A stretch of 33,955 nt of DNA. It comes from Microcaldota archaeon. GTDB lineage: Archaea; Micrarchaeota; Micrarchaeia; Anstonellales; Anstonellaceae. Shown here one piece after another: positions 29,194-33,489 of the stretch; positions within the stretch are counted from its first letter, which is position 1, and the number at the start of each line of letters is the position of its first letter. Position numbers and translations under genes: made by a program. The stretch is taken from NCBI GenBank assembly GCA_026414185.1, contig JAOAJL010000009.1:3798-37752 (forward strand), read 5' to 3'. The notes beneath the pieces are model-generated. The model searched no databases. It was not told where the DNA came from and saw nothing but the letters and a program-made list of their open reading frames with translations.

Positions 29194-29221
29194 TTTGTGT
29201 CAAAAATCCTTTGTGTCAAAA
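29194..29221. repeat. Tandem direct repeat TTTGTGTCAAAA in a divergent promoter region
   Basis: TTTGTGTCAAAA at 29194-29205 and 29210-29221, period 16 nt, between genes starting at 29184(-) and 29248(+). Confidence 0.6.
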
Positions 29222-29247
29222 TATCCTCGCTTTTGAGGGATGAGCGC

Positions 29248-30381
29248 ATGCCCCACTTTCCGCTGGTGAAGAACACCAAGAAGACAGACAGGATAATAGT
29301 GGTAGGCACGCAGGCGGAGATAGACTGCACAAAAGACTGGCTGAAAAGATGCAAAGCCCAAATTCAAGTAGAAGGCGTATGCACTTTCAGCGGCGGCAGG
29401 CAGCTTAGCAGGCAAGAAGGGGAATACGGGCTGAAAAAGAGGCTGGAAAAGGCAACCTCATCCTCGCTTATAATAAGCGACATAGGCGAGGGGCGCGACT
29501 ACAAAATAGAGCATATCGCGCAGGATGCAAAGGAGGTCTCCGACGCCAAGGTGGGTGTGCTGACGAGCAACCGCAGCTTCACCGGAGAGGCGATTGTGCG
29601 CAACCTATTTGTAGAGCAGCGCGGCTTTGACCCCGCCATCCTTGAAAAGATGGACTACATATTCAACTACCACACGGGAGATGGCAGGGTTTTCTGGAAG
29701 CTCATTGAGCTTCATGAAAACACGCTCAATATGGACAAGGGCAAGTCAATCCTCGTGGTTGAGGACAGGCCAGAGTACTACACCAATTTCCTGATTGACC
29801 TTGACAGAATAATAGAGAAGCGCAGCCGCATTCTTGTTGCCCGCACCTATGAGCAGGCAAAAAGCCTGATTTCCCGCCTTAAAAACAGGCTGCTTGGAGC
29901 CATCGTGGATGTCCATTTCCCGAAGAAGAGCAAGGTTGAGTCCGACTCGCACTGGGAGATTTACTACATGATAAAGGGGCAGGATTCAAAGGTGCCAATA
30001 ATCTTCCAGTCAGCGGATGCGAAAATAATAAGGTCGCTCAAAAGCGACAAGCGCGCCTTTTCCCTCTGGAAAGAAGACCCCTCATTTTTCTCCAACCTGG
30101 CGGCGACCATCAACGATTATTTCGGCTTTGGCGACTTTGTCTTTGTCAATCCGGCAGATTTCCAGCAGGTCCGCCGAGCCTCAAGCCTCACGCAACTTGT
30201 GGAGGGCATAACGAAAGTAGAAGACGTTTCAATCCTGTATCATGCTTCCAACAACCACTTCTCCAACTGGCTCCATCTGCATGGCTACTCAGAGGCGGCG
30301 TCAAAAATAAAGCCAATCTCCTCTCCTGACGCAGACTTTGTGCGGGCTGAGCTTCTGCGCATACTCAAGCCCTACCTCTGA
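29248..30381 (+). CDS. Double receiver-like signalling protein resembling the N-terminal half of PEP-synthase-like multidomain proteins
   Basis: GKSILVVEDRPEYYTNFLIDL...LLGAIVDVHFPKK...VPIIFQSADAKI; GFGDFVF...VEDVSILYHASNNHFSNWLHLHGYSEAASKIKP. Confidence 0.7.
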   Translation: MPHFPLVKNTKKTDRIIVVGTQAEIDCTKDWLKRCKAQIQVEGVCTFSGGRQLSRQEGEYGLKKRLEKATSSSLIISDIGEGRDYKIEHIAQDAKEVSDAKVGVLTSNRSFTGEAIVRNLFVEQRGFDPAILEKMDYIFNYHTGDGRVFWKLIELHENTLNMDKGKSILVVEDRPEYYTNFLIDLDRIIEKRSRILVARTYEQAKSLISRLKNRLLGAIVDVHFPKKSKVESDSHWEIYYMIKGQDSKVPIIFQSADAKIIRSLKSDKRAFSLWKEDPSFFSNLAATINDYFGFGDFVFVNPADFQQVRRASSLTQLVEGITKVEDVSILYHASNNHFSNWLHLHGYSEAASKIKPISSPDADFVRAELLRILKPYL

Positions 30382-30981: not shown

Positions 30982-31056
30982 ATGAAGGCAAAGGACCTGT
31001 TTTTTGCGCCTCTGCGGCTGTCCAGCCTCATCATCCTTATTCTTATTATTGGCTGA
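30982..31056 (+). CDS. 24-aa putative membrane micropeptide MKAKDLFFAPLRLSSLIILILIIG
   Basis: CGGTGGCATTG SD-like sequence (compare ATAGGTGGCTTTG before uL10) then ATG at 30982; C-terminal hydrophobic helix; TGA at 31054-31056. Confidence 0.4.
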   Translation: MKAKDLFFAPLRLSSLIILILIIG

Positions 31057-31128
31057 ATGCCATCCGCCTGTGTGATTGGCAACTTGCACGGGCGCCGGAA
31101 AAAAGAAAAAATATTGTGAGGTGTGAAT

Positions 31129-31413
31129 ATGGAGTATAAAAGAAGAGATGTTGTAAAAAATGGGACTGATAGAAAAAAGAGAGAAATGCCGGTCAAGACT
31201 TTCTTTGACCTGTACTACCCGAAAGACAAGATACCGACTGCCAAGGTGCCGGTTTCAAACGCAGAAGGCAAAACAAACAGCAGCCGTCCCGACGTGGGGG
31301 CATTTGACTGCCACGGCTTTCCGCTTCCAAAAAAGGAAAAGGAATCCCAAAAGAAACCCTCTGAGATTGCGTTTGACTGCCACGGCTTCCCCTTGCCTCT
31401 CACAGACAGGTGA
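31129..31413 (+). CDS. Small protein (94 aa) with duplicated AFDCHGFPLP motif
   Basis: GAGGTGTGAAT SD then ATG 31129; ...VGAFDCHGFPLPKKEKESQKKPSEIAFDCHGFPLPLTDR. Confidence 0.65.
   Translation: MEYKRRDVVKNGTDRKKREMPVKTFFDLYYPKDKIPTAKVPVSNAEGKTNSSRPDVGAFDCHGFPLPKKEKESQKKPSEIAFDCHGFPLPLTDR
31300..31398 (+). repeat. Two in-frame copies of the AFDCHGFPLP coding unit, period 69 nt
   Basis: 31300-31329 GCATTTGACTGCCACGGCTTTCCGCTTCCA and 31369-31398 GCGTTTGACTGCCACGGCTTCCCCTTGCCT; amino acids identical while wobble positions differ. Confidence 0.85.
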
Positions 31414-31528
31414 GTGAGCAAGCAAGCAGCCGCAAGCCTCTGCCCCCTTCCTTCATTTTTCCAATACTTATTTAAATACTTCCTAACACTTCTTTATCCG
31501 CTTCTGAAGTAAGAAGAGGAGGGGAATT

Positions 31529-32461
31529 ATGTCAAAGAGCAGCTTGCCGCTTGTATTTTTGGATGCTGGCCACGGGGGCAAAGACCCGGGCGCAATTGGC
31601 AATGGCTACAAGGAAGCGAGCCTGAACCGAGCCATTGCAAAACGCCTTCTTGAGAAGCTGTGCGATGAAAAAAGGGTGCGAGCAATTCTCACCCATCAAG
31701 CCGCCGGCAAGGACATAAATGAAACCTGGGCTGCGCGCGACCGCGCCGCTTTCCTGCGCGACTACAACAGCAGCAAGGAGAAGATTGACTATGTGCTCTC
31801 AATACACCTCAATTCCTCAACCTCTCAGTCTGCCTCTGGCTTGGTAGTTTGCCACAACAGCCGCGAGAAGGAAGCCTGGATGATGTATAATACAATGACA
31901 GAGCTTGCCCGGAAAGAAGGCTTTAACATCGAAGGCAACCGCGTGGAGAAGATACAGGACAGACCAGACCTTGCCATCCTCCGCGCATCACTACTTAAAC
32001 TTTTTGAGAAAAACGGCTTGAAGATAGGCGACAAGAAAGAGTTTGAAGATTACTTCAAGAAAGCCACCGATAATTTCAAGGGCGGCATTGCTGACTCTCT
32101 GGACAAAGTTATTGCCGACCGCGTTTCCATTCTGATGGCTACCATACGCGATGAAAGAAGCGCAAACAAGCCCTCCGCCGCATCTGAAAAGAAGACGGAG
32201 TCTCTTGAAAAGGAGATGGAGTCTCTTCGCAAAAAGGAGTGCGCGATACTTACAGGGATTGAGCCCCTTGTCAAGCCATACGAAAAATATTCCGTTCTCT
32301 GCGTAGAAAATCCACAGGAAGGCAAGGACTTGCGGATTCCCGCGCTTCTGGTTGAAACCGGCTTTATCAGCAACAAGGAGGATGCAAACAGGATTGCCAA
32401 GTACCCAAAGAACTACGCTGTCTGGATGGGCGAGGGGTTATATAAAATATTGCAAATCTAA
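31529..32461 (+). CDS. N-acetylmuramoyl-L-alanine amidase (Amidase_3 family), no evident signal peptide
   Basis: LVFLDAGHGGKDPGAIGNGYKEASLNRAIAKRL; DYVLSIHLNSS; IPALLVETGFISNKEDANRI; SD GAGGAGGGGAATT. Confidence 0.9.
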   Translation: MSKSSLPLVFLDAGHGGKDPGAIGNGYKEASLNRAIAKRLLEKLCDEKRVRAILTHQAAGKDINETWAARDRAAFLRDYNSSKEKIDYVLSIHLNSSTSQSASGLVVCHNSREKEAWMMYNTMTELARKEGFNIEGNRVEKIQDRPDLAILRASLLKLFEKNGLKIGDKKEFEDYFKKATDNFKGGIADSLDKVIADRVSILMATIRDERSANKPSAASEKKTESLEKEMESLRKKECAILTGIEPLVKPYEKYSVLCVENPQEGKDLRIPALLVETGFISNKEDANRIAKYPKNYAVWMGEGLYKILQI

Positions 32462-32535: not shown

Positions 32536-33489
32536 ATGAAACTCTCTTCCAAAAAAGCAGTTATCTGCGCAACCCAGCCTCTATTTGAAAAAAGCCTAAA
32601 GCAGAAGTTTTTTCTTATTCCCCTTGTTGAGCCACTGACATCAAAGGACCTTATCTCCAGATATTTTGACGAGAAAATCGCCCCATCTTGCGTTCTTGAG
32701 ATAAGAAAAGCCATTCAGGAGGAACTTGGCGAGAATGCTTTTGTGAAGTGGAAGTATCTTGGCATATCCGCACGCCTAAGCCCAAGCGAAGAAATTGAAA
32801 AATTGAAATCCATTATGCATTGTGTGAAGAAAAAGACTGAACAGAAGCTGGACTATGTCTCCAAGAGAATTCCTCTTATTTCAAAAAAAATAAAAAATCG
32901 GGACGAGAGGCTGCAGAACCTCAACAAACGCATCTCTGATCAGAATACGCCTGAGCCCACAAAAAGAAAAATAGCCTGGCAGATTTCAAAAAACAAAAAA
33001 ATTCACGAGCAGCACCTGTGGAACCTCAACAAATGCATTTCCGAGCAGAAGGAGCTTGAGCTCAAAAAAGAAAAGATAAGCCGGCTTCTTATTCGCGTGG
33101 AGAGCATCATCTCCTCTTTCCAAAAAGACAAAAATGAAGAAATAATAAAAAGCGCCACAGAGAACTTTCACAAGGAAGGGGAGCTTTTGGCTTTCATCCG
33201 CCTATCAGAAAGCAAGGACCTTCCTCCGAACAACATAAGGATTACCACAAACCTGGATTCAACGCGGGATATCACGCTGGAAGAAATCCGGGAGGCGCTT
33301 TCAGCTTCAGTTCAAAAAAGCGGCCACTCGGTTTCCTTCGCCTTTTTTCCATCTGAGCAGAAATCTCCATTTTTTGAGCTCCAGTCGTCACAACCAATAT
33401 TATTATTCGCTTCGCTTGACGGGATAGTTGATATAATGACGAATATCTCCTATGTCAAGAACATCAATTATGTTTTCCATTCCGAGTAA
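32536..33489 (+). CDS. Hypothetical protein (317 aa), central charged coiled coil with internal repeat
   Basis: Long ORF with GGCGG before ATG 32536; repeat RLQNLNKRISDQ / HLWNLNKCISEQ; no recognised family. Confidence 0.65.
   Translation: MKLSSKKAVICATQPLFEKSLKQKFFLIPLVEPLTSKDLISRYFDEKIAPSCVLEIRKAIQEELGENAFVKWKYLGISARLSPSEEIEKLKSIMHCVKKKTEQKLDYVSKRIPLISKKIKNRDERLQNLNKRISDQNTPEPTKRKIAWQISKNKKIHEQHLWNLNKCISEQKELELKKEKISRLLIRVESIISSFQKDKNEEIIKSATENFHKEGELLAFIRLSESKDLPPNNIRITTNLDSTRDITLEEIREALSASVQKSGHSVSFAFFPSEQKSPFFELQSSQPILLFASLDGIVDIMTNISYVKNINYVFHSE

Follow-up and report, generated by a model that had tools for sequence, protein, structure and literature searches.

Why a small archaeal protein would carry the same ten residues twice is the question raised by a locus in the genome of a Microcaldota archaeon, which was analysed within a stretch of 33,955 nucleotides (contig JAOAJL010000009.1, positions 3,798 to 37,752 of the forward strand; hereafter the window). 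The open reading frame (ORF) at 31129–31413 (+) begins with ATG, has an alternative in-frame GTG at 31123, and encodes a protein of 94 amino acids, MEYKRRDVVKNGTDRKKREMPVKTFFDLYYPKDKIPTAKVPVSNAEGKTNSSRPDVGAFDCHGFPLPKKEKESQKKPSEIAFDCHGFPLPLTDR. Its translation bears out the preliminary description of two identical AFDCHGFPLP motifs 23 residues apart, measured from start to start: copy 1 occupies residues 58–67 (31300–31329, +) and copy 2 residues 81–90 (31369–31398, +), the latter ending four residues before the C-terminus. Between them lies a basic, Lys/Glu-rich linker of 13 residues, KKEKESQKKPSEI (31330–31368, +). The protein is basic (pI 9.4) and polar (GRAVY −1.04), and lysine accounts for 14 of its 94 residues, so that the earlier characterization of the remainder as Lys-rich stands, whereas low-complexity was an overstatement, as nothing outside the motif is repetitive. 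The linker and the flanks of the two copies do not match each other beyond an [RK]P preceding the motif, and a degenerate third copy (TFFDLYYPKDKIP, residues 24–36) fell outside the best internal matches and is not claimed.

The ORF is very probably a real gene. A putative Shine-Dalgarno-like GAGGTG, read directly from the sequence, is located 5 nt ahead of the ATG (31118–31123, +), and the codon score of the ORF (0.118) is the highest among the six frames. This coding score is marginal, lying just under that of the weakest known gene in the window (0.141). Two tiny ORFs, 30983–31056 and 31057–31119 (+), are found directly upstream in the same frame (MKAKDLFFAPLRLSSLIILILIIG and MPSACVIGNLHGRRKKEKIL, respectively); the first is membrane-like, and codon scoring gave no support for either.

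The strongest evidence comes from the comparison of the two copies at the DNA level. They differ at 6 of 30 nucleotides, and all six differences are synonymous, five at third positions and one at the first position of a codon (CTT/TTG), as is consistent with the earlier report of one peptide encoded by differing DNA. The probability that the peptide would stay intact after six random changes is 2.65e-5, or 1.4e-4 under strong transition bias (roughly 3e-5 to 1e-4). If two codon sets were sampled independently at the usage of the window genes, they would be expected to differ at 5.6 ± 1.5 positions, which matches the six observed, and hence the silent sites look randomised. Together with the synonymous-only differences, this indicates that the peptide was held while its DNA drifted, and purifying selection on AFDCHGFPLP, as initially proposed, is well supported by this sequence comparison, in which the constraint is measured between two copies only, since no homologue was found. 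The repeat is also unusual in length, as exact internal repeats reached at most six residues when the protein was shuffled 20,000 times, and no other frame in the window has an exact internal peptide repeat of more than five amino acids, save for an antisense shadow of eight (discussed below). In addition, an exact 15-mer, ATAGCAGTATCCTAT, is present at two intergenic sites of the window (16535 and 33506), one of them just ahead of dnaJ.

Relatives of the protein were searched for at several levels. A protein search gave none in 300 other genomes of the phylum, including nine of the same genus, and none in a set of 59 relatives; there is no second copy in its own genome, and a protein-level scan of genome contigs gave no relative. 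No family is recognised in any library searched, in agreement with the first reading: Pfam gave no match above threshold (the best, SAXO5-like, scored 15.4 bits where the cut-off is 27, and lies outside the motif), NCBIfam gave none, the best PHROGs match was not significant (E 0.37), no solved relative was found among PDB sequences, and no enzyme family could be assigned by sequence. The weak protein matches within the phylum (E 0.03–0.6) were, where inspected, frames with internal stops, unrelated proteins or intergenic chance; examples are GFPLEMT in L039, which we take to be AlaRS and thus an unrelated protein, and AFKCAGFPMPKK in L033, an intergenic chance match between two real genes. 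The protein thus appears to be a lineage-restricted orphan.

The motif was also traced on its own. DNA encoding FDCHGFPL was matched 15 times across 11.3 million contigs, which is about chance level, given a rough expectation of about 7 (from codon degeneracy and uniform bases); all 15 matches are bacterial, single-copy and in unrelated frames, so that the suggested multi-copy variants did not emerge. Three matches of viral contigs to FDCHGFP[LF] are likewise single, chance-like and in unrelated frames, and no match of the FDCHGFPL type was found in phage records. DxxGFPLP in 59 relative genomes led to unrelated frames only, and FDxxGFP in 301 genomes of the phylum led, among the portion of places read, to unrelated or spurious frames only. 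At the places read, a seeming enrichment of FDC.GFP in relatives came down to tiny spurious frames, a large protein (L111/L112) and further long frames. The strings FDCHGFPLP and CHGFPLP were absent from the literature searched, and AFDCHGFPLP appears undescribed as far as these searches go. The first reading had named absence of the motif from all other genomes as a refutation, and absence is what the search of the 300 other genomes of the phylum gave; this rules out a widespread DPANN motif and leaves room for a lineage-specific function.

Nothing around the ORF points to peptide processing. Upstream of it, on the opposite strand, lies a Maf gene (156 bits), preceded by genes for a DUF5752-like and a PPDK_N-type protein; the DUF5752-like protein (394 aa, 29197–30381, +) scores just below the Pfam cut-off and has relatives in 3 of 20 other genomes tested. 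An Amidase_3 gene (90.5 bits; 31529–32461, +) starts 115 nt downstream, followed by a gene for a 317-aa coiled-coil-like protein (32536–33489, +) with no significant Pfam, NCBIfam or PHROGs family. The former encodes an N-acetylmuramoyl-L-alanine amidase-like protein in an archaeon; of the 21 genomes tested, only 3 have it, namely its own and two of the genus (43% and 35% identity). In G009, the Maf and amidase genes adjoin convergently with no space for the ORF between them, and thus the gene order around it is not conserved. None of the neighbouring modification or protease genes that had been suggested was found in the window, the right edge of which is the end of the contig.

The favoured, still tentative, explanation is that of a genuine, lineage-restricted, mostly disordered small cytosolic protein, which may show two identical docking peptides to a partner. 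Single-sequence AlphaFold models, which are weak evidence, gave a pTM of 0.17 and no global fold for the full 94 residues, and a pTM of 0.24 for the C-terminal 45 residues. Local confidence is raised at both motifs (block means of 76 and 86), where one bridge per motif is predicted (F59–P65 and F82–P88), which recurs in the 45-residue fragment. These models would fit a flexible chain with two small local turns. We infer that the protein is expressed and disordered and that it docks bivalently to a partner: the C-terminal half would display the two peptides, joined by the flexible basic linker, each peptide would adopt a small turn at D-C-H-G, and one and the same groove of the partner would accept either peptide. 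Such contacts would be bivalent if the partner is oligomeric, or would link two partner molecules, and the basic N-terminal tail could add a contact to nucleic acid or membrane. An oligomeric partner seems favoured, given that a basic linker of 13 residues connects the copies. Of the three functions initially put forward (metal binding, docking motif and processed peptide), docking fits best.

The main rival is the binding of a metal or metal cluster, which we consider rather unlikely. Here, the Cys-His pairs, one per copy, would give a Cys2His2 set, either with the linker forming a hairpin or with two chains being bridged. Metal binding ranks as the main rival because every cysteine and histidine of the protein (two each) sits inside the motif copies, providing four potential ligands. 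Metal ligands usually follow CxxC or CxxH spacing, whereas in this protein Cys and His are directly adjacent and the pairs lie 23 residues apart; Pfam gave no zinc-finger match, and the AlphaFold model does not join the copies in a confident fold. Moreover, the other eight residues (AFD..GFPLP) are equally invariant, which metal binding alone leaves unexplained. As it is the entire decapeptide that is invariant rather than Cys and His alone, a groove-held peptide would fit better than a metal site.

There is a paradox in that the copies look old, yet the gene is private to one genome. It would be explained by acquisition from an unsampled source, or by loss or fast divergence in distant relatives; the relatives are themselves quite distant, with Maf identities within the genus of 46–63%. 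Recent acquisition from an unsampled virus or element, in which case the function (for example as inhibitor or decoy) would concern the element rather than the cell, is unlikely. It would account for the absence of the gene from 9 of 9 other genomes of the genus and for copies that look old in an unshared gene, and the GC content of the ORF (0.479) is lower than that of the window (0.53). However, this difference is small, no viral or phage match was found, and no mobile-element gene was seen beside the ORF. A combination, namely a hitherto undescribed docking or metal-binding module with a specific archaeal partner, duplicated in a protein whose source was a virus, element or sister lineage not yet sampled, is improbable.

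It is quite improbable that the ORF is not coding on the + strand and that the signal stems from an antisense ORF (31215–31421, −), which has its own eight-residue repeat GKPWQSNA, or from a DNA or RNA element. The two copies share an identical 17-nt core, TTTGACTGCCACGGCTT (31303–31319 and 31372–31388, +), as would be expected from codon drift alone only 5% of the time. However, in the sense frame none of the six differences alters a residue, whereas the antisense frame changes residues just beyond the eight and leaves the other silent changes unexplained. When sense-constrained pairs were simulated, 20% of them showed an antisense identity of this length spontaneously. Elsewhere in the genome, the 17-mer occurs only with three mismatches, so the core does not belong to a repeat dispersed in the DNA, and there was no Rfam match. 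Most improbable is a precursor with two core units (a peptide signal, modified peptide or bacteriocin-like product), which two identical units with Lys-rich spacers do resemble, but there is no maturase, peptidase or transporter/exporter nearby in the window, inspection by eye revealed no signal peptide, and the last unit, with unmatched flanks, stops four residues short of the C-terminus.

In bivalent short-linear-motif proteins, a disordered chain carries a peptide in duplicate, with a flexible linker between the copies. The protein resembles these in its duplicated peptide and linker, and its copies are identical and under constraint; its chain may be disordered, given low pTM in the single-sequence models and polar composition. 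To our knowledge, no known linear motif matches AFDCHGFPLP. An aromatic-Asp-x-x-Gly turn is also found in the FDxxGxP β-turns of YD/RHS-type proteins. AFDCHGFPLP may form such a turn, and the model shows a weak tendency towards a hairpin, a likeness taken as a lead only; unlike YD/RHS proteins, the protein has no Pfam RHS or YD-repeat match, and two copies rather than an array.

Orphan small proteins with a repeated linear motif are already known as a kind, for example the amino-acid tandem-repeat proteins of Borg elements, which are archaeal, mostly disordered, contain perfectly repeated peptides and show similarity to short linear motifs (PMC9879509). The 94-aa protein shares with them its archaeal origin and a perfectly repeated peptide. 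Borg repeats stand in tandem, are recent, and in nearly all cases are perfect in their DNA as well (PMC9879509), whereas the two copies described here are separated and randomised at silent sites, in a small protein encoded on an ordinary chromosomal contig.

The reach of the finding is limited for now, as the protein has neither relatives nor a partner. Orphan genes make up a large share of small archaeal genomes, and most offer no functional handle. This gene holds internal evidence of selection, in that two copies of a decapeptide were preserved as the DNA encoding them became randomised, and AFDCHGFPLP is a ready synthetic-peptide bait for a partner search.
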